64,000 nt of DNA from a virus. Shown here in pieces: positions 7,793 to 30,436 of this stretch; positions within the stretch are counted from its first letter, which is position 1; each line of letters begins with the position of its first letter. The stretch covers positions 1 through 64,000 of the IMG/VR virus record IMGVR_UViG_3300025771_000012; one strand, 5' to 3'. A program made the position numbers and the translations under genes. The notes below the pieces were generated by a model. It was not told the origin of the DNA. It saw only the letters and a program-made list of their open reading frames with translations, and made no database searches.

Positions 7793-8038
7793 GACCAGCA
7801 CCGAATCCACAAACTGTGTTGACATCTATAAAGTATGAGTTATTTCCCATTGCGGCCGCATTAGTTGCGTTTGTTGTTAAAACAGTTCCATGGTCTCCAA
7901 CTACAACCGTATAAGACCAGCACCGAATCCACAAACTGTGTTGACATCTATAAAGTATGAGTTATTTCCCATTGCGGCCGCATTAGTTGCGTTTGTTGTT
8001 AAAACAGTTCCATGGTCTCCAACTACAACCGTATAAGA
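7793..8038. repeat. 122-bp tandem direct duplication
   Basis: The block beginning GACCAGCACCGAATCC at 7793 recurs exactly 122 bp later at 7915. Both copies end in GTATAAGA, so the identity includes a 2-bp junction overlap. Since 122 is not a multiple of 3, it shifts the glycine-rich adhesin frame. Confidence 0.95.
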
Positions 8039-8096
8039 TTGCCCTGCAGTTACAGAAATATTATTTTTCCAACCAAGGCCACCGCCTCCGCCACCG

Positions 8097-8190
8097 CCAG
8101 AAGACCATTGATATCCACCAGTGCCACCAGCGCCAACACAAACCCAGAAGACCATTGATATCCACCAGTGCCACCAGCGCCAACACAAAC
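8097..8190. repeat. 47-bp tandem direct duplication
   Basis: Positions 8097-8143 and 8144-8190 are identical, starting CCAGAAGACCATTG. The unit encodes VCVGAGGTGGYQWSSG and shifts the adhesin frame by 2 mod 3. Confidence 0.95.
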
Positions 8191-8793
8191 AACAGATACT
8201 GAAGATACTCCTGATGGACATGTCCATGAATATGTGCCGGGTGTAGTAAATTCGGCGTTTCCACCAGAATTTCCACTAGTTGCATCCTCAACATATTGTT
8301 CCAAATAAGATAATGGATAATTTACATTTACACTAGGGCCCAAGAAATCAAAAGTACTTTCGTCTTTTATTTCTATGTGATTTAAGTTTGTTGGGATTTC
8401 TACTGTTTTAATTTGAGTAGTATCATTAACTAAAATACTAAGTTCACTGCTATTGATATCTGGTAGTGCATATACATCATTTTTTTCTGTTTTGATATTA
8501 AGTTTAGAAGATAATACCTCAGTAACATTTAATGTATTATTTGTGATTAATTGTAAACTATCAGATAAAAAATTAGAAGAAGAGTTATAATCTCCATCTT
8601 CAATTACTATACCGATTTTTGAAATCGTGTCTACAAGAGGATTTTGCCTGACTAAAGGTTTAACAAAAAATGAAATCGGAGTTCCAGCGAGAATATTCGC
8701 TGGAAATTCCGATGCACTTTTTTCTGCTACTCTGGTTTCAATTCCTAATGTGACAGAAACCGTATCTACAGAGACAGTCATCAACTATCTCCT

Positions 8794-10620
8794 TTAGATT
8801 TCGATACTTGCCGTCACATTTGTAAATCCAGCACCAGTGATAATTGTATCTACTTGTAGGTCACCAGTTGTAAGTGTTGTTACAGTTTTTGTAGTTGTAC
8901 CATCACTAAAAGTCATAGAACTACCTTCAATAACTAGTTTAACACTTGTTGCAATTCTTGCACCAGAGGCGTTAATTGCACTCACATTTACAAATGTGTT
9001 AATGTTAGAACCAGCGTATGAATATGATGTATTCTCTGGAGTAATAGAAACAGTAACTGGTAGTGTTGGAGTCAACAAATGAAGTTCTGGGTAATTTTGC
9101 CCAACTTCTCCGTCTTCTTGACAATACCAAATTCTATCTAAAGAATCTCTACCAACTGCAGTAACTATATTTGAAATAGTTGATGTTTCGCCCCAACCAG
9201 TAGAATCGTTCCAAACATAAATTTTAAAACTTGTTTTAAACCAAACACCCAGCATAGTTCTAGAATCATTTAACCAGATCATATTTCTTGCAACTTGCCC
9301 ATAATCTAACTTAGAATGATAAGTAAGAGCTTTAGGGTTTGCTGCATCAACAGAGTAAACAATTACTGTTTTCATTGCTGGGTCAGATTCGGATGAGGTT
9401 TGAATTCTTCCGTCAATAGGAAAATATGCAACATATCTTTGGTTGTTACTAACCCAAGTTTCTGTATGCGCCAAATTACATCTCATGTTACTTGTATCAA
9501 AGGTCGAAGATTGTAGGGCGACATGTGCAGTACTTTTATCTCCAGTAATTGAAATATCTGTTTCAATTGCAAAAGTATCATCTGCAAGATTCCAAGTAAC
9601 TACCATTGGATAGAAATCTCCATATGAATCCCAATATCCTTTATAGAATGCCTTCTTTCCAGCATCTCTTGGGTCAGTAAATGTCTTAGAACATGTGTGC
9701 CAAAATTGATCGTTATTTAAATTATAACCACCTTGATGGGTTCCTGCAGCAACTGTTTGAACATTTTCAAGATGCGCCATTTGTGTCCAAGTTGGTTGGG
9801 TTGATCCCAAAGTCGCCTTAACTATTTTTACACTATTACTCATGGTGCCGCCTTGAGAATATGTTCCACATAAAAGAGGCATTCCATCTACTTGTGAATT
9901 ACCAAGCACTTGAACACTCCAATAACTCCCAAAACCAGATGGTGAATATTGCCAACCCGACCCATAAGAATTTGGCCAACCACTTCCGGCAGTAAGAAAC
10001 ATATAACTGGGGTAGTTTAAGTAACTACCACCGCCGTCAAATTGTGCCATTGCATAAATGTACCCACCATTAGTCCAAGATGGATGTGCCATTGGGTTTC
10101 TTTGATAACTCCATGTTGGATCTGCATCTTGAGATAATCTGACTTCATCTACATATGTGTCATCTGAAATATTTTGTGTATATCCGTCAAGATTAATGGT
10201 ATTACTATGTGACGAGTTCCAGATCGACATTCTTTTGTTTCCATTTCCATCATCATGCTCAGTCCAAGTAGAAAACGAAACTTCGGATTCCATTGTTTCA
10301 TCCATCCATCTCCACGCACTGTCATTTGGAACATTATATTGCGCTTGTGCTGTGGTGTTCCACTCATTTACATGGGTCGTCATTTTCTTTAATAATAACT
10401 GGTTCATGCCAACATCCGTGTTTGCACCTGTCTGATTGCTGCCGTGCCAATTACTCCAACCAGTCCCAATTGTCCAGTTCATTTTTTTGTTGTATTGCGG
10501 AGTAAGACTTGTTTTATCGTGTCTAACCCCAAACATCCACCAACCATCATTACCAGCTCTAGGGTCTTCCATTAGAACTGGTTGGTCATTTTCTCCAGAA
10601 AATTTATATACTTTCGCCAT
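8794..10620 (-). CDS. Virion structural protein, propeller-like body with Ig-like C-terminus (cassette copy 2)
   Basis: This 608-aa protein has no name I can give it with confidence. It is rich in Trp, Tyr, Ser and Asn, with irregular repeated beta segments suggestive of a propeller (for example VVTWNLADDTFAIETDISIT and ARNMIWLNDSRTMLGVW). The last 90 residues look like an invasin/Big-type Ig domain: VSITPENTSYSYAGSN through SVKLVIEGSSMTFSDGTTTK to ITGAGFTNVTASIEI. It is clearly paralogous over the C-terminal 350 residues to the 604-aa gene at 16777-18591 (both have VDAANPK or VDAADPK followed by RNM[IV][WF]LNDSRTM). It lies 12 bp before the glycine-rich adhesin gene and 3 bp after an 85-aa gene. 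A fibre or receptor-binding role is inferred. Confidence 0.6.
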   Translation of the reverse strand: MAKVYKFSGENDQPVLMEDPRAGNDGWWMFGVRHDKTSLTPQYNKKMNWTIGTGWSNWHGSNQTGANTDVGMNQLLLKKMTTHVNEWNTTAQAQYNVPNDSAWRWMDETMESEVSFSTWTEHDDGNGNKRMSIWNSSHSNTINLDGYTQNISDDTYVDEVRLSQDADPTWSYQRNPMAHPSWTNGGYIYAMAQFDGGGSYLNYPSYMFLTAGSGWPNSYGSGWQYSPSGFGSYWSVQVLGNSQVDGMPLLCGTYSQGGTMSNSVKIVKATLGSTQPTWTQMAHLENVQTVAAGTHQGGYNLNNDQFWHTCSKTFTDPRDAGKKAFYKGYWDSYGDFYPMVVTWNLADDTFAIETDISITGDKSTAHVALQSSTFDTSNMRCNLAHTETWVSNNQRYVAYFPIDGRIQTSSESDPAMKTVIVYSVDAANPKALTYHSKLDYGQVARNMIWLNDSRTMLGVWFKTSFKIYVWNDSTGWGETSTISNIVTAVGRDSLDRIWYCQEDGEVGQNYPELHLLTPTLPVTVSITPENTSYSYAGSNINTFVNVSAINASGARIATSVKLVIEGSSMTFSDGTTTKTVTTLTTGDLQVDTIITGAGFTNVTASIEI

Positions 10621-10929: not shown

Positions 10930-13008
10930 TTATGTTTGTCTATATTTGAATTGAACTACTAAATCTTCACCTTTATTCGTTGTTCCAATAGATGTTATAT
11001 CTACTGTTATGTAATCGCCTTCCACCATAGGAAACTCTGGTGCAGAAACAACACTGGAAAATTGTCCCGCTAAAATTGAACTGGATTTAACAGTAGAACC
11101 GTTTTTCTTAATTTGAATTGATATATTAGAATCTGCAGAAGATGAAACCTTTGTGTTGATACCAGTTACTAGTAGATCGAAGGGAGCATACCATCGTGCG
11201 GTGCCAGTTACTAATTGCAATTCGCCTTGTTGATTTAGATTTGTGATGAATGTAGTTTGTTCTTTTACTTTTGTAAGATTTGTGACAGTATCATCATTTA
11301 CTTTTTCTACAATTTTATCTTCCGCAAGTTCTCCAATTCTTTCTTGAATTACTGGAGTTTTAGTAATATAATCGCCCATATCTTGTGGAACAAATTCAGA
11401 TAGAGAAGAGTCGTAAACTAAACAAGATTGTCCTGCAATTGAAGGCCTCTGTTTAATTTCTACTGGAACAGAATGATCTTCTTGATCGTGTTGGAAATAT
11501 ACAACATAATTGCCTGCACCATTCGTTTCTACTTCAAGATTCTTGATGGTTAACATACCTCTCATAGAACTGTGATTTCCACACTGATAATACAAAACAT
11601 CTGGAGCATCATTTGGAACAACAAATTGAACTGTACCAGAATCATTCCTAGAACCTGTCACTCCATTGGTATATTCATCAACATACTGCCCCTGCGCCCA
11701 GTTTGTTCCATCATCTTGAGTTAAATAAAATGGATGTCCAGAAACACTAGAGTCTAAATTGAATGTATATGTACCACCCCTATAAAGAGGGCCAATATCT
11801 GGATTATCTCCCATTGTAATACCACTAAATGTATATGCACCAGAGTTTGCAAATTCAACATCATATACTAAATTTGGTGCAACTAAAGTTGGTAATGTGA
11901 TTGTAGATGGAACACTAATGTTTAATCTTTGAACTTCTGTTGCATTATCTCCATTAACACCTTCAAATGTAATATTTTGAACATTTAAAGTTGATGTTGC
12001 CCACGATACTAAATTGTCTGTGCCTGCACCTTCAATCCACTTAAGATAAATTTTATGAGTTTGAGTCATCGAACCATGAAGTTCATGTGCTGCAAAGTTA
12101 AATAAAGTATATGTGCCTGCAATGTAAATTGGAACGCCTGATTGCACCTGATTTAAAATAGTTGATCTTGCATACGGAAGGGCACCTGATTTCCATGTCC
12201 ATAACCATGGAGTACTATGACCAGCTGCCGGTGCATCTACCGCCATCTCTAGTACTTCTGGATTGGGTTCCAGTCTAACATTCGTCATCTGTCCTATTTC
12301 AGTAGGAACAACTGCACCATCAATCAATGACCCAGAAGGGAGTTGTAAAAGTCCTTCATTATTTACGGAAATTTCTACATCACCAATATAAAGAGTATTA
12401 CCACTCAAATATAAATCACGAAATCTATTTGTTGTAGAACCCAGATCATATGCAGAATCTGAGTTTGGAATTATGTGCCCCGCTAATGTTGTAGCAGCAA
12501 GAGTTTTATTTGAAAGAGTCTCTGTACCAGTTTGTGTTACATATCCTGCAAGGTCTGACGCTTCTAGTTTATTTGCAAGTGATGCGGTGATATTTGTTGC
12601 GAAGTTTGCGTCATCTCCAATCGCAGCCGCAAGTTCGTTAAGAGTATCTAATGTGCCTGGCGCAGTGTCTACTAAATTAGAAATTGCGGTATTGATATCT
12701 GTCTGAGTTGCAAATGAAACTGCAGAACCACCAGATGGTGTTACTTCAAAAACTCCATTATTATCAGAAATAACAAGATCGCCGATTGTAATAGAGTTTC
12801 CACTTAGATATAAATCACGAAATCTTTGTGTATTAGAACCTAAATCATATGTCTCGTTTGCATCTGGTAAAACATGTCCAGTGACAACTGGTGGTATGGA
12901 TGTATAAGATTTTTGCCATGCAGTAGTGGTGGAATTGTAAACATACACAATTCCATTGGAAGTAAAACTATCACCATTAGATGGATTGTCTGGAAAATTT
13001 ACTGCCAT
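10930..13008 (-). CDS. Tail fibre-like protein with cupredoxin-like domain (cassette copy 2)
   Basis: This 692-aa protein starts with the shared fibre module (MAVNFPDNPSNGDSFTSNGI, ending near W32). Two modules of the form YDLGSNTQRFRDLYLSGN follow within the first 215 residues, separated by LDTLNELAAAIGDD. A middle segment contains FAAHELHGSMTQTHKIYLKW. Residues about 375-495 look like a cupredoxin fold: SGHPFYL with H425 and YYQCGNHSSMRGM with C476, H479 and M482/M485, the residue types that hold copper in blue-copper proteins. The C-terminal 100 residues, with RWYAPFDLLVTGI and GDYITVDITSIGTTNKG, look like a small jelly roll. It is paralogous to the 559-aa gene at 18862-20541. Copper binding is untested; the fold may only be structural. 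Confidence 0.65.
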   Translation of the reverse strand: MAVNFPDNPSNGDSFTSNGIVYVYNSTTTAWQKSYTSIPPVVTGHVLPDANETYDLGSNTQRFRDLYLSGNSITIGDLVISDNNGVFEVTPSGGSAVSFATQTDINTAISNLVDTAPGTLDTLNELAAAIGDDANFATNITASLANKLEASDLAGYVTQTGTETLSNKTLAATTLAGHIIPNSDSAYDLGSTTNRFRDLYLSGNTLYIGDVEISVNNEGLLQLPSGSLIDGAVVPTEIGQMTNVRLEPNPEVLEMAVDAPAAGHSTPWLWTWKSGALPYARSTILNQVQSGVPIYIAGTYTLFNFAAHELHGSMTQTHKIYLKWIEGAGTDNLVSWATSTLNVQNITFEGVNGDNATEVQRLNISVPSTITLPTLVAPNLVYDVEFANSGAYTFSGITMGDNPDIGPLYRGGTYTFNLDSSVSGHPFYLTQDDGTNWAQGQYVDEYTNGVTGSRNDSGTVQFVVPNDAPDVLYYQCGNHSSMRGMLTIKNLEVETNGAGNYVVYFQHDQEDHSVPVEIKQRPSIAGQSCLVYDSSLSEFVPQDMGDYITKTPVIQERIGELAEDKIVEKVNDDTVTNLTKVKEQTTFITNLNQQGELQLVTGTARWYAPFDLLVTGINTKVSSSADSNISIQIKKNGSTVKSSSILAGQFSSVVSAPEFPMVEGDYITVDITSIGTTNKGEDLVVQFKYRQT
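12032..12100. repeat. 69-bp exact repeat, copy 1 (copy 2 at 19964-20032)
   Basis: These 69 bases are identical to 19964-20032 although the genes around them have diverged. The stretch encodes the HELHGSMTQTHKIYLKWIE region of the two cupredoxin-containing fibre proteins. Confidence 0.95.
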
Positions 13009-13028
13009 CTTGTTCCTCTTTTATGAAC

Positions 13029-13036
13029 TATTTATA
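13029..13036 (-). promoter_or_regulatory. T4-type late promoter
   Basis: An exact TATAAATA on the minus strand lies 21 bp before the ATG of the 692-aa fibre gene. It marks the start of the second adhesin cassette. Confidence 0.78.
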
Positions 13037-13044
13037 ATCCGTTA

Positions 13045-15486
13045 TTAGCCTTTTAGTGATTCTGTAGGCGGTGTAAAGTTTGCGGTGTATCTTGCGAGAC
13101 CTTTGGAGATGCGGAAGTCTTGTAGATAACCATAGAGAAAGTTAGAATTACTATTATGATATTTTCCTATGCTCCCAGCCGAATTTCCGACATAATTGAG
13201 TGAATCGGCATATGTTCCAATTGACGAGCCATTGACATAAAGAGTAGTTGTTCCGTTATTTTTTACTATAGCAAAGTGATACCAAGTATTAGTTGATGGA
13301 TTAACTCCACTATATATTCTATAGTTGGTATCGGTGATATATCTCCAATCCCCATCTTGAATAGCTAAAGCCGGATTTGTATTAGTACTAGCTCTAAAAT
13401 CAAAAACATATGAAGTTGATGTACTAATAAAATATACCCAACCTTCAATTGTCCAGTTTCCAGTTCCTAATGCTTCATGGTTAACTACAACATAATCCCC
13501 GTTACCATCAAAATACATTGACTTAGAATCAGCAAACTTAACTTGAGTAGTTGAGCCAGTAGTGTTTCCAACAAGCTTTAGGTTAGCGTTTTGAGACTTA
13601 TCTATGATGGAAGCGTCTGTTCCAATTACATGAACCGCTGCGGCCGAAGAACTAACTGGTTCCGTTGGTGGTGTAAAGTTTCCTGTATATACAACTGTAC
13701 CATTAAAAACACGCAAATCAGAAATGTACCCATTAAAGTCACTATCACCAGCGCTACTACTGCCAATTAAAATTGCTTTATCCCCTGTTCCTGTTGCGCT
13801 TCCTGTACTTGTGTATATTCCAACAGATTCACCATTGATATACATAGTAAATGTACTTCCTGATCTAGTAACAGCCACATGATACCACACATTATCATAT
13901 ATTGGGCCACTGGCAATTAACATTGCATTACCCCCAATGCCTTGCATTGCTAAACATATAGAATCATTATCATCATTGTGTTTGTATAATATCGACAATT
14001 GACTTGATCCCCACGGAGTGTTCTGTGGGCCAATTTGTAATACTCTTGGATAATTACGGGCTTTACTAATACCATATACCCAACAATCTATAGTAAAATC
14101 GTTAGTATCAAGTGTTAGTTCAGAGGCTAATGCACTTTGAACATATTGTCCCGATCCACCACTTGTTGCAGTAGAACCACTGGTAGCAAAATAAATTGAA
14201 CCACCGTGATCTGCTGCAGAGTATTCTTCATAATCATATGGACTAAATGGTTTTGTTGAAGTGTTGCCGTTTACTGTGATTGAATGATCGTTAGTCGATC
14301 CATCTGCTATGTAAGGTAGGTGACAAGTGAGTAGGCTAGTATTGGTGATTGCTGTTAAGCGTTTTGTTGGTGGAGTAAAAGTGGAAGTGTAGACGGCTGT
14401 ACCTTTTACTATACGCACATCTGTCATATAGCCCGTAATTGGAAACGAAGATGTAACAACTCCGGCGCCCACTTCAACAGCGTATGAGCCTGGATTAAGA
14501 GATGTTGAGATAGTACCAGATACTTTTTCAACTCCGTCCACATATATTTTCGTAGTAGAACTATTTCTTACAACAGTTATATGATGCCATGTATTATTCG
14601 TAAGCCCAGTAGTAGTTGCTTGTATGTAAGACGTTGTGCCACCATCAGTGTAATAAAATCTTAAATTGTTGTTGCCATTATTTTTATATAATCTCCATCC
14701 ACCATTTTGAGCGTAACCTCTACTTATAAACGCTAACCAAGTACTGTTTACATCTGGAATATTAATCCACGTTTCAATTGTGAAATCACCAGTACCAAAG
14801 TCGAAACTTGTATTGGAAGGGGCTGTAATATAATCCCCACTTCCATCAAAATAAGTGCTATAACCCCCGCTGCGATAAGGACTAAATGAACTTGATGTAG
14901 GTGCATTTATAGGCGAAAGTGTTAATGCATTTGTTGAAGAATCTGTAAAACTACTATTATCTGATGTATCTACCGCTGTTGCTAATAAAGTTGTGTAATT
15001 ACTATTTAAAATCTGAAATTGCAGAGTTATAGATGTATTTGTACTCACCACTCCATTCACACCATCAGTTGCGTTTATGGTTAAAGTAAATGTACCAGCG
15101 TCTGCTTCTGTAGTGCTAGGTGTAATAGTAAATACATTATCTGATTGACTCACTGTAGCAATAGAGCCCAACCCACTCGTAGAATAACTCCATGTCAAAG
15201 GGAATCCTTCTGGGTCTGTCGAAACAGCAGTAATAACTGTAGGTGTTCCATCTACAACGAGTGAATAAGTTCCATTCACTCCAGTGATTGCACTTGGAGA
15301 ATCGTTTTGTACTGTAGCAATCTTATACCAACCAGTTCCAGCATACACATAGATGTTGTTATTTGATTGTACAAACGCCTGAGCCCCGTCAGTTCCTGTT
15401 GCTGCAATCAATGCATTCATATCTGTATAGACAGTTGTACCACTGCTACCACTGCTTGCATATCTTATACTTGAGTAATTCGTCAT
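13045..15486 (-). CDS. LamG-domain adhesin lacking its N-terminal module (cassette copy 1)
   Basis: This 813-aa frame is the paralogue of the 850-aa gene. It has a cadherin/Ig-like segment (QNDSPSAITGVNGTYSLVVD) and three LamG-like domains marked by YFDGSGDYI, WHHITVVRNS, GYMTDVRIVKGTAVYTS, then WYHVAVTRSGS, GYISDLRVFNG, then WYHFAIVKNNG and GYLQDFRISKGLARYTA. The first ATG (15486) is preceded in the same frame by a single TAA, and before that by a 25-codon frame encoding the usual fibre N-terminal module. The ATG at 15486 has no good ribosome-binding site of its own. The main frame therefore looks like the body of a formerly longer gene of about 839 codons. It may be translated by re-initiation or readthrough, or the stop may be a sequence error. 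Confidence 0.72.
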   Translation of the reverse strand: MTNYSSIRYASSGSSGTTVYTDMNALIAATGTDGAQAFVQSNNNIYVYAGTGWYKIATVQNDSPSAITGVNGTYSLVVDGTPTVITAVSTDPEGFPLTWSYSTSGLGSIATVSQSDNVFTITPSTTEADAGTFTLTINATDGVNGVVSTNTSITLQFQILNSNYTTLLATAVDTSDNSSFTDSSTNALTLSPINAPTSSSFSPYRSGGYSTYFDGSGDYITAPSNTSFDFGTGDFTIETWINIPDVNSTWLAFISRGYAQNGGWRLYKNNGNNNLRFYYTDGGTTSYIQATTTGLTNNTWHHITVVRNSSTTKIYVDGVEKVSGTISTSLNPGSYAVEVGAGVVTSSFPITGYMTDVRIVKGTAVYTSTFTPPTKRLTAITNTSLLTCHLPYIADGSTNDHSITVNGNTSTKPFSPYDYEEYSAADHGGSIYFATSGSTATSGGSGQYVQSALASELTLDTNDFTIDCWVYGISKARNYPRVLQIGPQNTPWGSSQLSILYKHNDDNDSICLAMQGIGGNAMLIASGPIYDNVWYHVAVTRSGSTFTMYINGESVGIYTSTGSATGTGDKAILIGSSSAGDSDFNGYISDLRVFNGTVVYTGNFTPPTEPVSSSAAAVHVIGTDASIIDKSQNANLKLVGNTTGSTTQVKFADSKSMYFDGNGDYVVVNHEALGTGNWTIEGWVYFISTSTSYVFDFRASTNTNPALAIQDGDWRYITDTNYRIYSGVNPSTNTWYHFAIVKNNGTTTLYVNGSSIGTYADSLNYVGNSAGSIGKYHNSNSNFLYGYLQDFRISKGLARYTANFTPPTESLKG

Positions 15487-15564
15487 TTAACGATCCGTCC
15501 ATGTTTTAGAACCTACAACATGAATATCACCGTCAGAGGGAGATGTAGGAAAGTTGATAGCCAT
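15487..15564 (-). CDS. 25-aa fibre N-terminal module cut off by an in-frame stop
   Basis: The ATG at 15564 follows AAGGAG (15572-15577) with ideal spacing. The frame encodes MAINFPTSPSDGDIHVVGSK and then TWTDR before TAA. This is the same N-terminal module that starts the 850-, 692- and 559-aa fibre genes. The next codon after the stop is the ATG of the 813-aa LamG gene, in the same frame, so one stop codon separates module and body. The ribosome-binding site overlaps the stop of the 394-aa gene upstream. Confidence 0.6.
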   Translation of the reverse strand: MAINFPTSPSDGDIHVVGSKTWTDR

Positions 15565-15575
15565 TTATCATCTCC

Positions 15576-16760
15576 TTAGTACCATGTTTGAATTTCTGTG
15601 ACTGTTCCACCACCGCCACCTTCACCTTCGGCTCCAGTACTGTCAATAATTCTTGCACTAGTGTGACTTCTAGTTCCAGATTGTAACTTATTTAATTCAT
15701 TTAAATCGTAGGGAGTTAAATTACTGAAACTTCCTACTGAAATTCTTTTTTCTGTATTAAAGAATCCATCGTCTGGTAAGTTAGAAATAAGATCTTTTCT
15801 TGATGTGATACTTATTTCATCAAAATAAACAAAGCGATCTTGTTCATCTACAGTCTTTAGTGTCAATCTTTCTGCTGGTAAAGTATTTGGTAAAATTTGT
15901 TTTGATGTAGTTATAACATTAGTAGAGATTATATCTCCAATTTTAATGTTTAAACTGTGATTGAATGTGGTAGACTCCTCATATTCTTCCACCATCAATC
16001 CTGCCGTTGGAACTGTCGTTGTTCTATCTGGATCAAACATATACATTGCAGAATTGTTATCGAATGTATATGTTCCTGCTGTAAAAGTTCTTTCGTAAAC
16101 AACCTCATCTGATGAACTGTCTTGTAAAATATTTCCAGCATTTCCAATACTTGTCCAACCAGTTGTATCAACTGCGTTCCAGTTTGTCTGCCTTATCATA
16201 TAAACAGTTGTTGTAAATGCAAAGGTAATATCAATTGCGTCACTCGTATTAATTTCTTGGGTTGTCACAAGTCCTTGCAAATCAACTCCAATATTTGATT
16301 GAGTATTCTGTAAATTATTATATGTAGTCCAGTTATTTACTGGTATTTTTAACTGCAATCCATTCACGGCAATTCCAAGTGGTTGAGCCCAACTTGAAGA
16401 CAATGTAATTCCACAGTTTGCAACACTTAAAGTATCAGTTGACGAAACTTGTTGATCTCCACCAGTAGAATTAATTGTGTAATATCCAAGTCCAAAGGTA
16501 TGTGTGTTTGGTGTTTCAAAGGGTGCGGAATCAGTTTCTACCAATAAAGGTAATGTTTCAAGAACAACCGAATAATTTGGATTACTTCTTGAAACATTGA
16601 TAGTTGTTATCGATTGATTTTCTGGGTCACCTACATATTTGTCTGTTGGCAAGGAAGACCATGTATCACTAGTATCAGAGACATTTAGGTTGAATTTACC
16701 AAAATGTACTCCGATACCTTGTGTGTCTCCACCTTGTGACCTAATACTAATTGCACCCAT
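15576..16760 (-). CDS. Virion structural protein of unknown function (cassette copy 1)
   Basis: This 394-aa protein begins MGAISIRSQGGDTQGIGVHF and has alternating short hydrophobic and polar stretches typical of beta-structured fibre proteins. The last 80 residues, with RISVGSFSNLTPYDLNELNK and a run of five glycines before VTEIQTWY, resemble the end of the glycine-rich adhesin at 6696-8781 (DRKSFEQLTDENDPR and IQSWSS). It occupies the same slot in its cassette, between the propeller-like gene and the LamG gene. It therefore looks like the counterpart of the adhesin with most of the glycine-rich central domain missing or replaced. I do not recognise a named family. Confidence 0.55.
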   Translation of the reverse strand: MGAISIRSQGGDTQGIGVHFGKFNLNVSDTSDTWSSLPTDKYVGDPENQSITTINVSRSNPNYSVVLETLPLLVETDSAPFETPNTHTFGLGYYTINSTGGDQQVSSTDTLSVANCGITLSSSWAQPLGIAVNGLQLKIPVNNWTTYNNLQNTQSNIGVDLQGLVTTQEINTSDAIDITFAFTTTVYMIRQTNWNAVDTTGWTSIGNAGNILQDSSSDEVVYERTFTAGTYTFDNNSAMYMFDPDRTTTVPTAGLMVEEYEESTTFNHSLNIKIGDIISTNVITTSKQILPNTLPAERLTLKTVDEQDRFVYFDEISITSRKDLISNLPDDGFFNTEKRISVGSFSNLTPYDLNELNKLQSGTRSHTSARIIDSTGAEGEGGGGGTVTEIQTWY

Positions 16761-16776
16761 TGGTTCACCTTAGTAG

Positions 16777-18591
16777 TTAAATCGAAACACTTGCTACAAT
16801 ATCACTCAACCCTGCACCAGTAATTACTACTGCCTGAGATACATCTGCAGTTGTAGATGTTGTTACTGTTGTAGATGTTGAACCACCACCAAAGTTCATA
16901 GTAGAACCATCAATTGTTAATGCAACATCAACTGCAATTCTATCTCCAGATGCATTATATGCACTTATTGAAACGGTTGTGTTAATATCACTTCCTGCGT
17001 AATTATAGTTGGTTGCAGCAGGGGTAATACTAATTTTAACTGGAATAGAAGGAGTAATGATGTGCATTGATGCATAACTGTTGAATGCACCAACTTCAGT
17101 TGCCCAAATTCTATCGGTTGTATCTCTACCCAGTGATGTGAATTTACCAGCATATGTTGTAGTCAAAACCCATCCATCAACATTATTCCAGTTAAAGATA
17201 TAAATTGCATTCTCACCAATCACACCAAACATTGTTCTAGAATCATTCAAGAATACCATATTTCTTGGTGTTGCTGGAATTGTTACTGTAGAGTGATGCG
17301 TCAATTGTTTTGGATCTGCCGCATCCACTTGATATGTTACAACAGTTCTTGCAGTTGGTGTATTATCGTGACATTGATAGAAACCGTGAATTGGGAAAAG
17401 TGATAGATATCTATTTCCAGAAGAAACAAAAGTTTCATTATAGAAATACGCACTCATATCACTATTATCACCTTGTCCGCCTGTGTGGTTATTAAAGTGA
17501 GTAGAACTTACATCACCAGTAATTGTAATATCAGAATTGTTGGTGAATGTATCTGTAGATTTATCCCACTGATACCAGAATGGATGATAATTTAAGTTTG
17601 CATCAAGATATGGAACATAAAAACACTTGTTTCCAGCGCTTGTTGGGTCATCAAATGTGTGGGATGCCCATTTTACATGTCTGCCAATTGTTGTTGTTGC
17701 TCTTGTACCACCATAGTTAGTTCCTGCAGCTGTTGGGGCAGTATTAAATCTATGCAAATCAGTAGTTGTATTCGCACTCACATTGTGTTTTGTGATATAC
17801 TGATCGTGATCGTTGTCTTGATTATTATACAAGTAAATTGGTTTACCATCTACAGTAGACATACCGATATATTGAACACTATACGGAGCTCTCATGGTAG
17901 TATTCCAATTATCATTAGTATCACTATAGTCTAGCATATAGTTTCTTCCCAATCCCATGTGAGGCCTTGCAACATAAGAATCGTGTCTAACCTGTTGGCA
18001 GATATTAGAAACCCATTTTGTACCTACTTCTTCTTCAGTTGCCATTGTTGGCACCATAATTTCACTAGACGAACCCTGCCCGTCATATCCCCAAGAAGTA
18101 GATGGCGATGCTTCATATAATTCTCTTGTTGGATTTAACCAAGAAATTTGACGATACCAATTATAAAACATCGGACGGTTTTGCCAAACATAGAGGTCTG
18201 TACCATCGTCTGCAGTAATTCTCTGCATACCAGTTCCTCTTCTAGACTCTTCCATACTTAAATATTGTAAAAATGGAATATTCGTTACTCTATGGTTTCC
18301 TACTGTGTTGTCTTCTTGATTACAATACGCAACTTCTTTACCAAGCGCCATTGTCGATGCACCATCACCACTTCGTTGTGAGTGGGCATTATCATCGTTT
18401 CTATAAATGTTTTGACCCCACAAAGAATCTTTTGCTTGGCCCGTGTACATATACATAGAACCATTGAAGATAGGAGCAAGGGTTGATTTATTATGTCCTT
18501 CTGATTCTAAATAAATGGTGTTTGTGTTTGGATTAATGTCTTCTAACACTGAACACACATTTCTTTTACTTGCCTGTTTAATCTCTGCCAT
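16777..18591 (-). CDS. Virion structural protein, propeller-like body with Ig-like C-terminus (cassette copy 1)
   Basis: This 604-aa protein is the paralogue of the 608-aa gene at 8794-10620. The N-terminal 230 residues differ strongly and contain many Asn, Tyr and Trp residues (for example MFYNWYRQISWLNP). The C-terminal 350 residues are shared, with FWYQWDKSTDTFTNNSDITI, VDAADPKQLTHHSTV and PRNMVFLNDSRTMFGVIGEN. The end is an Ig-like domain with VKISITPAATNYNYAGSDIN and GAGLSDIVASVSI. A variable front and a conserved back suggest that the N-terminal part contacts a variable target and the C-terminal part attaches to the particle, or the reverse. It lies 12 bp after the 75-aa gene and 16 bp before the 394-aa gene. 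Confidence 0.6.
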   Translation of the reverse strand: MAEIKQASKRNVCSVLEDINPNTNTIYLESEGHNKSTLAPIFNGSMYMYTGQAKDSLWGQNIYRNDDNAHSQRSGDGASTMALGKEVAYCNQEDNTVGNHRVTNIPFLQYLSMEESRRGTGMQRITADDGTDLYVWQNRPMFYNWYRQISWLNPTRELYEASPSTSWGYDGQGSSSEIMVPTMATEEEVGTKWVSNICQQVRHDSYVARPHMGLGRNYMLDYSDTNDNWNTTMRAPYSVQYIGMSTVDGKPIYLYNNQDNDHDQYITKHNVSANTTTDLHRFNTAPTAAGTNYGGTRATTTIGRHVKWASHTFDDPTSAGNKCFYVPYLDANLNYHPFWYQWDKSTDTFTNNSDITITGDVSSTHFNNHTGGQGDNSDMSAYFYNETFVSSGNRYLSLFPIHGFYQCHDNTPTARTVVTYQVDAADPKQLTHHSTVTIPATPRNMVFLNDSRTMFGVIGENAIYIFNWNNVDGWVLTTTYAGKFTSLGRDTTDRIWATEVGAFNSYASMHIITPSIPVKISITPAATNYNYAGSDINTTVSISAYNASGDRIAVDVALTIDGSTMNFGGGSTSTTVTTSTTADVSQAVVITGAGLSDIVASVSI

Positions 18592-18603
18592 TTTCTCCGC
18601 TCC

Positions 18604-18831
18604 TTAAAAGTTTTCTTTAAACCAAGTCACAACTTCGTCAACTGACGCCCAAGATGCTCTTGAACCGTCACCAAGTGGATTCCATGGTTGGTCTGCAATT
18701 TTGATGGCCTCACCATCTACTACTTTTGAAACACTTGCATTTTGTCCATCAAGGTTTGCTGTGTAGTTTTCTGTTACTGTGATTTCGTTACCGTCCTCAT
18801 CAGTGGTAACTTTATCAATTGTAAAGTCCAT
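18604..18831 (-). CDS. Small acidic protein, paralogue of the 85-aa gene (cassette copy 1)
   Basis: This 75-aa protein begins MDFTIDKVTTDEDGNEITVT. The C-terminal half carries QPWNPLGDGSRASWASVDEV and TWFK, shared with the 85-aa protein of the other cassette. The pair is always located directly before the propeller-like gene (12 bp here). A late promoter lies 28 bp upstream. The function is unknown. A chaperone or partner of the downstream large protein is possible but unproven. Confidence 0.6.
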   Translation of the reverse strand: MDFTIDKVTTDEDGNEITVTENYTANLDGQNASVSKVVDGEAIKIADQPWNPLGDGSRASWASVDEVVTWFKENF

Positions 18832-18858
18832 TGTTATCTCCTATTATGTTTTTACTTC

Positions 18859-18866
18859 TATTTATA
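18859..18866 (-). promoter_or_regulatory. T4-type late promoter overlapping a stop codon
   Basis: An exact TATAAATA on the minus strand overlaps the end of the 559-aa fibre gene and lies 28 bp before the 75-aa gene. Confidence 0.75.
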
Positions 18867-20541
18867 CTTTTTTATATGTAAACTGCAGATAGAGGTCTTG
18901 GCCAACGGAGTTAGTTCCAATACTCGTAATATCAACTGTTAAATAATCCCCAGCATTCATTGTAAAAAATGGGGCAACAATATTTGTTGTTGTGGTATTT
19001 GGAGAAAATGAAACAGTTTTTGCAGAAACTCCGTTATTCTTTACATCAATTCCTACGATATTATCTGCAGCGGTTCCAAGATTTGCTGAAATACCTACTA
19101 TCTGTAAATCAAATGGAGCATACCACCTTTTTGTGCCAGTGATTACTTGTAAATCTCCACCTTGATGCATGTTAATATTAAATACAGTTTCATCTTTAAT
19201 CTTGTCTGTTACTTGTGTGGTTGTTGGTTTGTCTGCAGTTTCTGTATTTACTAAATTTGCAATCTTTGACTGAAATTGAGAAGTAGAATCTAGATATTCT
19301 CCCATGTCCTGCACTTTAAATTTTCCAGAAGGGCCATCATAAACTAAACATACATTATCAATATCTGCGAGTGTTCGTTTTGGGCGTATCTCTGCTGGTG
19401 TTGAATGTCCATCTTGGTCGTGTTGGAAATATACAACATAATTACCATCTACATTTGTTTCTACTGCTAAATCTTTAATTGTAATCATACCCCTCATAGG
19501 ATTGTGATTTCCGCATTGATAATATAATGTATCTGGTGCATCATTTGGAACGGTAAATACCAAAGTTCCACTTTCATTTCTCGAACCTGTTACGCCAGAA
19601 GTGTATTCATCGACATAATTTCCTGCAGAATAATTAGTACCATCGTCTGTGGTTAAATAAAATGGATGTCCAGAAAGTGATGCGTCTAAATTAAAAGTAT
19701 ATGTACCACCACGATAGAATGGGCCAATATCTGGATTATCGCCCGAAGAACTACCAGCAAAGGTATACGCACCCGATGATACAAAAGATACATCATATGA
19801 CACACTTGGTGCATTTAAAGTTGGTGGTGTGATTGTAGATGGAACATTTATGACAATTCTTTGTACTTCTGTTGCATTTCCACCATTTATGTTTGGATTG
19901 GTAACTCCTGTCACACTGTCTGTAATTGTTGCCCATGAAACTAGATTATCTATACCGGCGCCCTCAATCCACTTAAGATAAATTTTATGAGTTTGAGTCA
20001 TCGAACCATGAAGTTCATGTGCTGCAAAGTTATTGATTGTATAAGTTCCCTGATTATATAATGGAACATTTGATTGAATTAAATTAGTTATCTTAAGTCT
20101 ACTATATGCAACCGATCCAGCTTCCCAAGTCCACTTCCAATGCATACCATGGCCTGCATCTGGTGCATCTACATTTAATGTAAATATTTCATCTGATATT
20201 GTTACATCGATGTCAGATAATTCTTCTACTGCACTTGGAATTGTCGTGCCGTCAATAACAGTTCCAGCCGGCAACCCTAAAACTCCATTTTCATCCACAG
20301 ACAAGGCAGTATCGCCCAAATAGATAGTATTACCACTCAAATAAATATCACGGAATCTTTGTGTTGTACTTCCTAAATCATAAACTTCATTTGCATTTGG
20401 TAAAACATGTCCATTAACGACTGGTGGTGCGGTTGTAGATTGTTTTGCCCACACACCTTTTGTAGAATTGTAAATATACACAATTCCATTTGCGGTAAAG
20501 TTGTCACCATTTGAGGGACTATCTGGAAAATTTACAGCCAT
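18862..20541 (-). CDS. Tail fibre-like protein with cupredoxin-like domain (cassette copy 1)
   Basis: This 559-aa protein is the shorter paralogue of the 692-aa gene. It has the shared N-terminal module (MAVNFPDSPSNGDNFTANGI, ending near W32) and only one YDLGSTTQRFRDIYLSGN module. The HELHGSMTQTHKIYLKW segment follows, then the cupredoxin-like domain with H292 in SGHPFYL and C343, H346 and M349/M352 in YYQCGNHNPMRGM. The His-to-Cys distance (51 residues) is identical in both paralogues. The C-terminal domain again has RWYAPFDLQIVGI and GDYLTVDITSIGTNSVG. The ATG lies 3 bp after the restored stop codon of the giant fibre gene. The likely role is a fibre or decoration protein. Confidence 0.65.
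   Translation of the reverse strand: MAVNFPDSPSNGDNFTANGIVYIYNSTKGVWAKQSTTAPPVVNGHVLPNANEVYDLGSTTQRFRDIYLSGNTIYLGDTALSVDENGVLGLPAGTVIDGTTIPSAVEELSDIDVTISDEIFTLNVDAPDAGHGMHWKWTWEAGSVAYSRLKITNLIQSNVPLYNQGTYTINNFAAHELHGSMTQTHKIYLKWIEGAGIDNLVSWATITDSVTGVTNPNINGGNATEVQRIVINVPSTITPPTLNAPSVSYDVSFVSSGAYTFAGSSSGDNPDIGPFYRGGTYTFNLDASLSGHPFYLTTDDGTNYSAGNYVDEYTSGVTGSRNESGTLVFTVPNDAPDTLYYQCGNHNPMRGMITIKDLAVETNVDGNYVVYFQHDQDGHSTPAEIRPKRTLADIDNVCLVYDGPSGKFKVQDMGEYLDSTSQFQSKIANLVNTETADKPTTTQVTDKIKDETVFNINMHQGGDLQVITGTKRWYAPFDLQIVGISANLGTAADNIVGIDVKNNGVSAKTVSFSPNTTTTNIVAPFFTMNAGDYLTVDITSIGTNSVGQDLYLQFTYKKV
19964..20032. repeat. 69-bp exact repeat, copy 2 (copy 1 at 12032-12100)
   Basis: Identical base for base to 12032-12100, while the flanking coding sequence differs within one or two bases on either side. 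Confidence 0.95.
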
Positions 20542-20544
20542 TTA

Positions 20545-23500
20545 TTATCTCTCCATTAGTAACCAACCTTGAGTTGCGTTATAATAAACCAACCCAAATG
20601 CGGCCCTATTCGTTGTTATTATTAGATTATCTGCAACACCTTGAATATTACTTCCACTCCTATTTATGCGTTGTTATTATTAGATTATCTGCAGCACCTT
20701 GAATATTGCTTCCACTCCTATTTATGGTTATATTATTTATAGATGCATTACCTGTCGCATCAATTATTCTAACTTCATCTCCCTGTGATGGTGAGGATGG
20801 AAGTGTTACAGTAACCGCACTAGAACTACAGTCAACAAACAGTTTATCACCAGCACTTGCAGTATAATCTGCAGATTGTTCTTGCCATTGTGGTGTAGAT
20901 GTTGAATTATTTTCTCCAGAAACACTGACCCACTGAGAATTAGTGCCATCATTGTAATAAATAAGAAGAGTAGCATACTGACTATCAAACCACATATCAC
21001 CAGCGTTTGGTGATGTTGGTGCAGTATCAGATACTGTTACTGAGGCGCCTCCGCCGGAGGCGCCAATAAGATTGACCCACTGTTCTGATGAACCATCATC
21101 ATAACGGAAATATAATGAATCGTCTGATGAGTCAAACCAAAGACTGTTTACAACAGGATTTGTAGGTGCAGTATCGGACGAAATAATTGGTGAAGTCGCA
21201 CCTGATGGGTTTGATTGAATCCACTGTGACGATGTTCCATCATTGAAGTACACATACATCTTTGTGTTCGCAGAATTGAACCAAAGATCACCAACAGAAG
21301 GAGAAGAAGGTGCGGTGTCGGATACAGAAACGGAAGCTCCACCTCCACCGCCAGAAGCAACATTACCCGGCTTCCAAACAGAGTTTGCGCTATCCCAAAT
21401 AAGTGCCTGTCCATCTGTGGGTGATGTTGTTGTTAAATCTACATCCGTCAAATCGTCTAACGCAGACGGTACGGATGGTTTATTTGTTAAACTATTATAG
21501 TCTCCGTCAAATGCATCTGTAATACCATAACCAGCGATTGTTGTTGGGGTTCCAGTGAGAGATGCCCAAGTTCCATCAAATACTTCTGATACATTTGCAA
21601 GCTCAATCCATGAACCACCATGGGCATAATATGCCTTACCAGTTGCATGGACATGTGCAAACATTCCATGGTAAGATGCAGCTGAAGGTAAATCTCCAAT
21701 AGTTGCATACATATTAGAGAACAGAACCTTATTAGTTCCTAAATCTAAATCTTGTCCTTCAACATGTGAACGAACTCTTGCGTCTGTATAGTAAAGATTT
21801 GTTCCTTCAGAAAGGTCAGTTGTAGATTTTGTCGTTAACCAAGAATCGGCAGTTGTATTAAAATCAGTAATTGCAAGTTTAGTTCCAATCAAGTTGGTAA
21901 TTGTAGTTGCAAAGTTTGGATCATCACCAAGAGCCGCAGCAAGTTCATTAAGAGTATCTAATGTTGTTGGTGCAGAACTCACCAAGTTTGCAAGTTCAGT
22001 ATCTACATATGAAACAGTTGCAAATGGTTGTGCAGACCCGCCACCAGTTGTATGTACTTGAAGAGCACCAGAATGTTCAGTGAGAACAATACCACCAAGA
22101 GTAATACTATTTCCACTTAGATACAAATCTCTAAATTTGTGAGTTGAACTACCCAAGTCATATGTTACATCTGTGTCGGGAATAATATGTCCAGAAACAT
22201 TACCAAGTTTTGTTTGAACTCTGGTGTCTGTATAATAAAGATTTACTGAACCTTCAGTCAAATCATCTGTATCTTTAGTTGCAAAATCTGTGTTGAAGTC
22301 TGATGTTGCATAACCAGAAATAGTGCCGGGCACAAAATTTGTACCATTAAATATAAGAGTTTGACCATTTGTAGGTGCAGTTGTGGTTATATCTACATCC
22401 GTTAAGTCATCAAGAGAAGTTTGTCCTGTAGAATTTACAGAACCAGAAGCTTCAATCCACTGGGAAGAATTTCCATCATTATAGTAAACATAAAGTCTAA
22501 GATTGCTACTATTAAACCACAAGTCGCCCTCAGATGGAGAACTTGGAGCTGCATCTGAAAGATGTACATTAGATGCAACATTTCCTGCAGCTTCTACCCA
22601 CTGAGAAGAAGTTCCATCGTTATAATAAATGTAAGTTTTTAATTCTGAAGAATCAAACCACAAGTCTCCATCTGATGGACTTGAGGGTGCAATGTCAGAA
22701 ACATCAATAGAAGAACCAGCGGATGCGCCAGGCACCCACTTACTATTTGTATTATCCCAAACGAGTGCCTGCCCATCCGTTGGTGTTGTGGTTGAAGTAT
22801 CTACATCAGAAAGGTCATCAATAGAAGAACCAGAAACAATATTCGCAGCTGCGATTCTTGCATCAACTCTTGCATCAGTGTAATATAGATTTGTACCTTC
22901 AGTTAAATCAGTTGTAGATTTTGTAGCAAGTCTTGTATCAAATCTAGTATCCGTGTAATATAGATTTGTACCTTCAGTTAAATCTGTAGTTGTTTTGCCA
23001 GCAAATGCAGAATTAAATCTTGTCTGAGTATAATAAAGATTTGTAGAACCTTCCGAAAGATTATCTGTAGTTAGACCAGATAGATCTTGAAGATATCTTC
23101 CATCCAGACTTATAGTTGCAGCGGTGGATGCATCATCTCTAGTAAGAGTTAATGTTCCATTTGTAAATGTTGCACTATTAATTCTTGAAAGATTTGTATC
23201 ATCAAATAGAGGACTAAAATCAATAGTAAATGTTGTTGCATCATCTCTAGTGAATGTTGCAATACCAGTAGTTCCATTTAATGTACCACTTACTAATCTT
23301 GCAAGATTTGTATCATCCAAGTAGAGAGATAAATCAATATTTGTTGTATTACCATCTTCATCTGTATATGTCAGAACATTTCCTGCAATTCCAAGTGAAG
23401 TCAGTGTTTCTGCCGCAATTCCTTGTGCGGTTAAATATGATTGAACTCTTGCGTCTGTATAGTAAAGATTTGTACCTTCAGAAAGGTCAGTTGTGGATTT

Positions 23501-26500
23501 CGTTCCAAAGTCCGTATCAAAGTCAGAAGAATCATATGGATTAGATGCAGTAATTCTAGCATCAACTCTTGCATCTGTATAGTAAAGATTTGTTCCTTCT
23601 ACAACATCAGTTGTAGATTTTGTAGCAAGTCTTGCATCAAATCTGGCATCTGTATAATAAAGATTTGTAGAACCTTCTGAAACATCATCAGTATTAGTTG
23701 GTAGTTCAGATACATTTGCAAGTTCTACCCACTGTCCATTATGGGCATAATATGCCTTTCCTGTACCGTGTACATGTGCAAACATACCATGGTAAGATGA
23801 AGCACTTGGCAAATCACCAGTATTTGCATAAACATTAGAAAATAAGATCTTATTCGAACCCATATCAAGGTCGGCGCCTTGGATGTGAGTTCTAACTCTA
23901 GCATCAGTATAGTAAAGATTTGTACCTTCAGAAAGGTCAGTTGTGGATTTCGTTCCAAAGTCCGTATCAAAATCTGTACTTGTATAACCCGAAATAGTGC
24001 CTGGCACAAAAGTTGTACCATTGAATATGAGAGTTTGTCCATTAGTTGGTGCAGTTGTAGTCGTATCTACATCACTAAGATCGTCAAGAACTAAAGTACC
24101 AATATTTGTTGTCAGTGAATCTATTTGACTTTGTAAATTTAAATCTGCCTGTTCTCTGTCATATACTTCATCATCTAAATCTGAAGAAATACTTGCAATT
24201 TGTGCTGCAACATATGAAGTTGTAGCATATCCTGTACCAGACAAATAAGAGGCAACTCTTGCATCAGTATAGTAAAGATTGGTAGTACCTTCCGTTAAAT
24301 CGTCTGTGTCTTTTGTTGCAAACCGTGTGTCAAAATATGAATTAATTTCATTACCAAGATTAATAAATCCAAAATTACTATTTCCAGCATCATATAATAA
24401 AACATCTCCACTTGCTGGTGTATCAACTGCATCTACATCCGATAAGTCTTGAATACTTGCAGTATTAATACGAGTATCGGCATATGTGTTTACTTCAGTT
24501 GCAAAATCGACTGGTAGAAATTCATTACCATCATACAGAAGGAAATCTCCAGTCGCAATTCCAGTTGTATTTACATCATTCAATACTCCAATATTTGCAT
24601 TAGCAACTCTCGCATCCGCCCTAGCATCTGTATAGTAAAGATTTGTACCTTCGGTTAAATCGGTTGTAGACTTGCCAGAAAAGTTAGCATCAAAATCAGA
24701 AGAATCATATGGATTAGATGCAGTAATTCTTGCGTCAACTCTAGCATCTGTATAGTAAAGATTTGTACCTTCGGTTAAATCGGTTGTAGACTTGCCAGAA
24801 AAGTTAGCATCAAAATCAGAAGAATCATATGGATTAGATGCAGTAATTCTAGCATCTACTCTTGCATCTGTGTAGTAGAGATTTGTAGAACCTTCGGAAA
24901 TGTCATCGGTAGTTCCAGACAATTCTGATAATTGATCTTTTGTTGCAATTGCAGAATCGACATAAGATTTTGTGGCCGCATCAGATGGGTCAGTTGGCGT
25001 TCCAACATTATAAATTCTAAATGCATTTACATTGATTTTACCACCAGCATTCGCTTCTAGTTCTAGGTCAGTCTGTCCATTATTTGCCGGTAGATATTTT
25101 TGTCCATAGAAGAATGGTTGACCACTATTATTTTTAATTGCCATGCCAGCAGAACCAGCAGCAGTTCCAACACCGAAATACGAATTATTTGTTCTTAACT
25201 GTATTCTGTCTGCAGTTGCATTCGATTCCAGATATGTTTCAACTCTGGCATCTGTATAATAAAGGTTTGCAGAACCTTCAGACAAATCATCCGTAGTTTT
25301 ATTTGCAAGTGAAAGATTTGCACCTGTTTGAAGTGCAATTCTTGCATCAACTCTTACATCTGTATAATAAAGGTTTGTTCCCTCAGTTAAATCGGTGGTT
25401 GTCTTACCAGTTAACCAACTATCAGCAGTTGTATTAAAATCTGCTGTTGCAAGTTTTGTTCCAATCAAATTAGTAATTGTAGTACTAAAGTTTGGATCAT
25501 CTCCCAAGGCAGCTGCAAGTTCGTTTAGTGTATCTAATGTAGTTGGGGAAGAATCTACTAAGTTTGCAACTGCAGTGTCAACATAAGTTTCTGTTGCAAA
25601 TGCTTCTGTACTACCACTTGCAGTTACCTCAAGGGCCCCATTATTGTCAGATAATTGTAAAGTTCCAAGATAGATAGAACTTCCACTCAAATAAATGTCT
25701 TTGAACCTATTTGTATTGCTACCCAAATCATAAGTAACATTTGTATCTGGAACGATACTACCAGAAAGATTCGATAGATAATTTTGTACAGAGGTATTTA
25801 ATGATGCAGTAGTTGCTTGGTTACTTGCATTACCGATGAAAATGTTTCCACTGTTTAAGTTAGGTACAGCATTTGTACGTCCTGCACCCATAATAACGCC
25901 GCCGCCGTTGGATGCATGAACTTTTGTGACACGGCCTAAGTTTTGTAATAGATTACTTTCACCAACTGGAGGGGTATTTGTGTAACCACCACCGACTGCA
26001 ACATAAATTATGTCGCCTTCATTAAATGCACTTGTGTCAACTCCAGAGATTCGACCCATATGAATGACGAATCCTGTAGCACCTGATGCTAAATCTTGTT
26101 CTAAAACACCAACCGCTGGCATTGTAGCTGAACTACTTGCATCAGCTGGTGCAATTGTCATTGCATTGCCACTTGTTCCTGTTTGATAAACAGGTGTGCC
26201 TTTAAGAATAGTTGACCCAGTTTGGTTTGTTACTTCAGTATGAATTGTGTCTAAATTTTCAAACGATAACGTACCGCTACCATCTGTCATAATAACTTGG
26301 CGATTTGTACCATCTGCAACTGGCAGACTATAACCATCTGCACTAATATTAGTAATATTAAATCCACCAGAATTTAAGTTGCCGCCTAATGTGGGAGTTG
26401 TATCTTCTACAACTTCATTTATACTAACCGATTGAACTCTTGCATCTGTGTAGTAAAGATTTGTAGAACCTTCTGGCAAATCATCAGTAGAACCCAATGC

Positions 26501-29500: not shown

Positions 29501-30436
29501 TACACCTGTAGCTGGATCGTAATTAATACTTCCAGTTGCACTAATGGAATTTCTTGATCTAGTTTCTGTAAAATAAAGATTTGTTGAACCTTCTGGAATA
29601 TTATCAGTTGTTCTATTTGCAAGGAATGTATTGACTGCGCCTTCGACAATATCATCAGAGTCGAATTCACTAAAATCAATTTCTACATTTAAAAGATTAC
29701 CAGCATCATCATAATTTTTAGTTAATCCTTTACCATCAACAAAAAGATTTGCAACTCGATCATCTACTCTTTCATCTGTATAGTAAAGATTTGCAGTTCC
29801 TTCGTTTATATCATCTGTTGTTCTATTTGATAAGAAAGTATTAACAGTGCCTTCGACAATATCATCAGTATCAAATTCTGAAAAGTCAATTGCAATGTTT
29901 AGAAGATTTCCGGCATCGTCATATGCCTTTTGAATTCCTTTTCCATCAACAAAAAGAGCAGCAACTCTATCGTCTACTCTTTCGTCTGTAAAATAAAGAT
30001 TTATTCCTTCTGGAATATCAGAAGTTGATCTATTTGCAAGGAATGTGTTAACTGAACCTTCAATGATATCATCAGTATCAAATTCACTGAAGTTTATTTC
30101 GATGTTTAGAAGATTTCCAGCATCATCATAATTTTTCTGAATACCAACGCCATCGACAATAAGAGCCGCAACTCTATCATCCACTCTTTCATCAGTGAAA
30201 TATAGATTGGTTGTGCCCTCTGGAATATCGTCAGTATTTGGTTTGTTTAATAAATCTGCCCAACTTCCTGATGCGGCAATATCTGCAAGTCCAAGGTTTG
30301 TTCTAGCATCTGCCGCATTAGTTGCACCAGTTCCACCGTGATCCAGACCTACCGTTTCATTTGTTCGAAATTCACTTAAACCTGTTGTATCACCAGAACC
30401 ATCTACGACTACTCTTATTGGGATAGCGTTAGTCAT
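20545..30436 (-). CDS. Giant repeat tail fibre, about 3277 aa (C-terminus interrupted by a 58-bp duplication)
   Basis: The ATG is at 30436. The N-terminus (IPIRVVVDGSGDTTGLSEFR and GLDHGGTGATNAADARTNLG) is the type used by phage fibre proteins and resembles that of the 310-aa gene. About 40 copies of a motif like TEGTNLYYTDARVD follow, often in 25-residue units. There are also three copies of YHGMFAHVHGTGKAYYAHNG, two YDLGS modules with LDTLNELAAALGDDPNF, and seven APSSPSDGDLWFD modules near QWVEA. As given, the frame stops at 20660 inside a 58-bp duplication, ending ITTHK. Removing one duplicate continues the protein through NLIITTNRAAFGLVYYNATQ to a stop at 20545. It is probably a long tail fibre shaft. 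No enzymatic motif is seen. Confidence 0.8.
20611..20726. repeat. 58-bp imperfect tandem duplication
   Basis: Positions 20611-20668 and 20669-20726 match except for two bases (CTGCAACACC versus CTGCAGCACC, and ATTACTT versus ATTGCTT). The extra unit shifts the frame and truncates the giant fibre gene. Confidence 0.93.
24621..24850. repeat. 120-bp in-frame tandem repeat
   Basis: Positions 24621-24730 and 24741-24850 are identical over 110 bases with a 120-bp period. Each unit encodes 40 residues with the core TEGTNLYYTDAR and TASNPYDSSDFDANFSGK. Confidence 0.9.
27231..27388. repeat. 75-bp in-frame tandem repeat
   Basis: A 75-bp period (25 residues, core LYYTQSRFDTAFGVKSTTDL) is repeated without change from 27231 to 27388. 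It shows that whole repeat units of the giant fibre are gained or lost in frame. Confidence 0.9.

Follow-up and report, generated by a model that had tools for sequence, protein, structure and literature searches.

Do phage tails carry copper? The question is raised by two fibre proteins, P0001 and P0002, encoded in the window, by which we mean the whole stretch of DNA analysed here, 64,000 bases out of the 135,728-base IMG/VR virus record IMGVR_UViG_3300025771_000012. A first-pass annotation, made from the letters alone, had described in both a cupredoxin-like domain with a His in SGHPFYL and a Cys-x2-His-x2-Met motif in YYQCGNHxxM; both motifs are present, with a distance of 51 residues between His and Cys in each protein. 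The evidence below, drawn from sequence and from predicted structure, speaks for a metal site that has been maintained, in all likelihood of the type 1 (blue) copper kind and not CuA. With moderate confidence, we regard P0001 and P0002 as tail-fibre or baseplate-connector proteins of a large marine phage, each with a cupredoxin domain and an intact predicted type 1 site that would most likely hold one copper ion. The features concerned are the following.

10930..13008, minus strand: P0001, fibre protein of 692 residues with one cupredoxin-like domain (open reading frame; PHROG 677 and several tail-fibre PHROGs)
11524..11886, minus strand: cupredoxin-like domain of P0001, residues 375–495 (domain proper of ~110 residues, about 380–495)
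11734..11736, minus strand: P0001 His425, predicted ligand 1, in GHPFYL (invariant column)
11581..11583, minus strand: P0001 Cys476, predicted ligand 2 (invariant column)
11572..11574, minus strand: P0001 His479, predicted ligand 3 (invariant column)
11563..11565, minus strand: P0001 Met482, predicted axial ligand (invariant column; kept also in the F-A-x-M clade described below)
18862..20541, minus strand: P0002, fibre protein of 559 residues, paralogue of P0001 (open reading frame; PHROG 677)
19456..19815, minus strand: cupredoxin-like domain of P0002 (domain proper about residues 247–359)
19666..19668, minus strand: P0002 His292, predicted ligand 1 (18/18 in alignment A4)
19513..19515, minus strand: P0002 Cys343, predicted ligand 2 (18/18 in A4)
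19504..19506, minus strand: P0002 His346, predicted ligand 3 (18/18 in A4)
19495..19497, minus strand: P0002 Met349, predicted axial ligand (invariant in A4)

No further copy of the domain was found in the 135,728-base record at E 0.001, these two being the only matches. All four ligands are identical in the pair, as the first-pass annotation had pointed out. However, the two domains are 75% identical, a level at which chance alone would preserve four given residues in about one case in three; comparison of the two paralogues is therefore weak evidence, and the significance of the ligand conservation has to come from the wider family.

Predicted fold of the domain

As a check on the cupredoxin assignment, the first-pass annotation had proposed structure prediction of P0001 residues 375–495 and comparison with plastocyanin-like folds. 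The AlphaFold model, built from 42 aligned sequences, was confident (predicted local distance difference test, pLDDT, 95.4; predicted template-modelling score, pTM, 0.88), and all 50 of the best structural matches listed by VIA-align were cupredoxins, with rusticyanin (2cal; 2.5 Å over 103 residues) and the cupredoxin domain of a nitrite reductase (2dv6) in the top ranks at Z 10.5 each. Foldseek against PDB returned rusticyanin as well as laccases, with E-values of about 5e-4 to 1e-3, and an aspartic peptidase (two entries) was within the first ten matches. Residues 2–115 of the model align to residues 34–155 of rusticyanin, a range consistent with the ligand positions of the latter, which we take to be H85, C138, H143 and M148. 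In the full-length model of P0002 (pLDDT 72.6), residues 244–356 also match rusticyanin, with Z 11.3 and 2.1 Å over 101 residues.

A profile of 30 domains of the family (A1) was searched against PDB. The best match was amicyanin (E 1.2e-6), followed by nitrite reductases, plastocyanins, rusticyanins and auracyanins, and all 60 matches listed were cupredoxins. The C-x2-H-x2-M loop of the family aligns on the amicyanin loop; in the same alignment the first His lies two residues off the amicyanin His, pulled by a Pro-Pro match. When the ligand columns were masked as a check on circularity, amicyanin still came first at E 8.4e-4, a 700-fold weaker E-value, and antibody light chains, which are other beta-sandwiches, appeared lower down in the list. 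Pfam Copper-bind matches 10 of the 30 members of A1 (best 8.1e-8), the window member not being among these. Membership of the cupredoxin fold superfamily is thus supported by the predicted structure as well as by the sequence profile, and the His, Cys, His and axial Met of a type 1 site are found in the right order and in the right loops.

Conservation and loss of the ligands

Since searches with peptide patterns that contain a ligand are biased, we used queries lying outside the domain or patterns without a ligand. For the fibre family of the window, a ligand-free query gave 16 loci with 10 distinct domains, and all 16 have the intact His, Cys, His, Met set (HCHM). The N-terminus of gp9, the baseplate connector that carries the same domain in cyanophages, was used in the same way and the best 80 of 565 relatives were taken; 78 of these loci contain the full domain, in every case intact, and the other two (L118 and L142) end 41 and 131 bases past the query match. 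Counted over all domains at these loci, 139 of 139 (88 distinct) are HCHM. In a set of 58 distinct gp9 proteins, no Cys, His or Met is conserved at ≥95% apart from the four ligands and the start Met, and 56 of the 58 have a single cysteine in the entire protein. With the F-A-x-M clade set aside and representatives chosen at an 80% identity cut-off, 25 site-bearing domains have 9 invariant columns out of 98, all four ligand columns included; by our own arithmetic, the chance of this is C(9,4)/C(98,4) = 3.5e-5.

The clade just mentioned is a family of tail fibres, exemplified by that of Synechococcus phage S-B43 (F-A-V-M), in which F, A or S, V/T/I, and M stand at the ligand places in 39 of 42 loci; of the remaining three, L194 is HCHM, L191 is truncated and L195 gave no usable match. 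Here the domain was kept while His, Cys and His were lost on a single branch. In a tree of 71 domains from which the ligand columns had been removed (98 columns, with forks otherwise poorly resolved), all ligand-less rows fall together (support 99), adjoining the site-bearing L194 and Bellamy, and one change suffices to explain them. Over the site-bearing tree (22.2 substitutions per site) none of the four ligand columns changes; His, Cys and His change together on one stem that makes up 0.56 of the total 24.8 substitutions per site. The median column changes 13 times over the whole tree. We calculate the chance of two further random losses falling on the same branch as ~(0.023)^2, or ~5 in 10,000. 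Inside the clade, four further changes then follow at the second His position (V/T/I), as expected when a constraint has been lifted, and the Met stays. Homologues that lose the ligands freely, named by the first-pass annotation as the finding that would speak against a site, were thus not what we observed: there is one loss on the tree, and it took three ligands together.

Nature of the proposed site

Copper is the likeliest metal because the fold, the ligand order and the short, amicyanin-like loop all point to a type 1 site. The His in the GHPF loop and the Cys-x2-His-x2-Met of the C-terminal loop would together form it. The first-pass annotation had named the ligand types of blue-copper and CuA sites alike, and only the former stand. 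A CuA site needs two bridging cysteines (C-x3-C) and two His, and is rejected because the domain has only one Cys (in 56 of the 58 gp9 proteins, the only one in the whole chain). Its reading of a cupredoxin fold with a kept ligand set was supported by structure prediction and comparison, by profile search and by conservation.

A possible course of events is that the protein is made in the cytoplasm metal-free and would be loaded with copper after lysis, outside the cell. Bound metal may then hold both ligand loops fixed, making one end of the beta-sandwich a rigid face that could serve fibre assembly or contact with the host surface. The metal would be structural and not an electron carrier, since we see no redox partner and one clade manages without the site.

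Several observations weigh against a copper site of this kind. The ligand set would also suit zinc or another soft metal, and although a bound metal is in our judgement most likely, its identity is deduced from the features named above. The P0001 domain alone gave no match in Pfam and no sequence match of note in PDB, and a profile from the ligand-less clade alone found no cupredoxin in PDB, so that the sequence link to cupredoxins comes from the site-bearing members. The concerted loss of the ligands is a single event. Finally, the site is dispensable in some phages: in the S-B43 genome no second copy of the domain was found at E 0.001 besides the ligand-less one, which means that a phage can live without the site.

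The F-A-x-M clade also bears on the alternative, raised already by the first-pass annotation, that the protein retains the fold simply as a stable spacer, a beta-sandwich in which the ligand residues are leftovers or serve core packing. In this clade the domain persists although the three strong ligands are gone, and the other invariant columns of the profile (F34, P44, G65, Y90 and G100) look structural. However, the four columns never change in the site-bearing tree, where the median column of the whole tree changes so often, and the second His position varies once the site is lost. A single free Cys, kept in 56 of the 58 gp9 proteins, is also not readily explained by packing. We consider a mere spacer unlikely as a general account; it is disfavoured for most of the family and seems true for the F-A-x-M clade. 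A disulfide is a highly improbable explanation of the conserved Cys. The window family does have a second well-conserved Cys (C398 of P0002, 17/18), but His, Cys and His are lost together, and an intrachain bond in gp9 is ruled out by the single Cys of 56 of the 58 proteins, which leaves the intermolecular form.

If, on the other hand, the site does hold copper, it might be redox-active and work as a switch in host sensing or fibre deployment, by a Cu(I)/Cu(II) transition or by becoming oxidised in seawater. The ligand set is indeed that of electron-transfer type 1 sites, as judged from the profile match and general copper chemistry, but no partner or acceptor is visible and one clade lacks the site, so we hold such a switch to be quite unlikely. 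The metal could also be a bait by which the tail engages a copper-binding or copper-uptake protein of the host. Marine phages, which have the domain in their tail proteins, live where trace metals are scarce. Copper bait would parallel the ‘Trojan Horse’ hypothesis for iron, which has been published, as have HxH motifs that bind iron in phage tails (PMC11705849). Against this, no host receptor is known. Furthermore, the metal site of cupredoxins is buried, so that copper would not easily be offered to a receptor, and we regard bait as very unlikely. The structural type 1 copper site is, in sum, the reading we prefer.

Genomic context

The match of both proteins to PHROG 677, ‘baseplate wedge tail fiber protein connector’ (E 7.1e-16 for P0001 and 7.2e-23 for P0002), covers only the C-terminal part of the profile (positions 217–410 and 179–411 of 412, respectively). 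P0001 also matches several tail-fibre PHROG families, and searches of the whole of P0001 and P0002 against Pfam and NCBIfam gave nothing relevant. Around them in the window lie further tail genes, encoding a sheath stabiliser, a head closure protein, sheath, wedge-like and fibre proteins. The label ‘fibre’ is supported by the last domain of P0002:

18865..19209, minus strand: C-terminal beta domain of P0002 (residues 445–559), fibre-head-like by structure matches of the full-length model

This domain resembles phage fibre and cement proteins, namely the tail fibre of Agrobacterium phage 7-7-1 (9rkv_M, Z 10.6), the trimeric cement protein of phage KHP40 (7dou, Z 9.7) and the baseplate cup of a Klebsiella phage (9f4b, Z 9.7). 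Just outside the cupredoxin domain of P0002, residues H185, H374, H379 and C398 are conserved in 17–18 of 18 relatives and may form a second metal site or a catalytic one.

Near the two fibre genes, at 8794–10620 and 16777–18591, lie paralogous proteins of 608 and 604 residues, which suggests that a fibre module has been duplicated. At 8097–8190, a perfect 47-base tandem duplication falls in the glycine-rich end of a gene and, as 47 is not a multiple of three, breaks the frame (open reading frames 8050–8784 and 7901–8227); it is either an assembly artefact or a real frameshift. Positions 20660–30436 encode a protein of 3258 residues with many TTDLTEGTNLYYTDARVDARI-like repeats. Three proteins (30504–34397, 50970–55253 and 55330–57378) match one tail sheath family, phrog_12249, and two of them carry roughly 1000 extra residues ahead of the sheath match.

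Distribution

By tblastn, the domain was detected in 310 of 50,697 phage records, 305 of which are named Synechococcus phage, Prochlorococcus phage or cyanophage, along with two Pelagibacter phages, two marine phages and one uncultured. In T4-like cyanophages it is located at the C-terminus of the gp9 connector (the gp9 label being that of the annotations); cyanophages Syn9 and Syn33 are examples with an intact gp9. P-SCSP2 and P-GSP1, which are classified under Autographiviridae, have the domain too. Multiple copies are present in several genomes, with up to four matches, in P-SSM2. It is a tentative and rather doubtful extension that the tails of marine phages, most T4-like cyanophages included, hold many type 1 copper sites, several per fibre or baseplate, that copper controls attachment or fibre deployment, and that infection depends on seawater copper.

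The gene after cyanophage gp9 encodes a large protein with a second, diverged cupredoxin-like domain (GHPM...YYYCxxHxxM) that has the same four residues; it was found in 64 open reading frames with 44 distinct domain sequences, among them those at loci L042, L045, L047, L048, L051, L056 and L057. In Synechococcus phage S-SCSM2R (L038, 2812–3318), the fibre domain is matched by a tail-cluster protein of 168 residues that is encoded next to an S8 peptidase and named ‘PetE’ (plastocyanin), probably a mislabel. Structural matches in BFVD include ‘beta-sandwich proteins’ of Pithovirus LCPAC302 and Marseillevirus LCMAC201 (A0A481Z6J5, A0A481YVH3 and others). Bacterial relatives were found at 16 loci in genome contigs, and all 18 of their domains are HCHM, a count biased by a query pattern that included the ligand Cys. 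Five proteins from these loci had no Pfam match, except for collagen in one. Some of the contigs may be phage, and L196 has a gp9-like gene.

Comparison with known systems

Rusticyanin and amicyanin are electron carriers. The domain described here shares with them the fold and the ligand order H...C..H..M, and with amicyanin, its best PDB sequence match, the C-x2-H-x2-M loop as well; in contrast to both, it is one module within fibre proteins of a tail gene cluster. For marine cyanobacteria, copper is a limiting or a toxic trace metal. Should the sites hold copper, the particles of cyanophages would be copper proteins with a metal site of a kind new to virus tails, phage attachment would be tied to this trace metal, and viruses would have to be added to the copper ligands of seawater. 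With the F-A-x-M clade as a metal-free comparison provided by nature, the idea can be tested directly in cultured phages.

Among the titles listed in searches of the open-licence PMC literature (subscription journals and preprints lying outside it), none concerned a cupredoxin domain in tail or virion proteins of phages, and the gp9 annotations in the records examined name no copper or cupredoxin feature. What appears new is a known copper-protein fold in a virion setting; cyanophage petE and iron in tail fibres were already known, and phage tails may carry copper too. Within cyanophage gp9 (PHROG 677), the same domain with the same four residues stands at the C-terminus, whereas the window proteins have further domains after it. 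Tail and baseplate genes of S-TIM4 mutate during host adaptation (PMC6224464), and cyanophages encode petE (plastocyanin) as a metabolic gene (PMC3037559, PMC2984593). The latter is likewise a cupredoxin encoded by phages (PMC3037559), but as a stand-alone photosynthesis gene and not as a domain of a tail protein. The closest parallel in a tail is the iron of T4 gp37-type fibres with their HxH motifs (PMC11705849): both are metal ions in a fibre, predicted in the case of the window proteins, but the iron is octahedral and held by paired His-x-His motifs, whereas the site proposed here is that of a cupredoxin.

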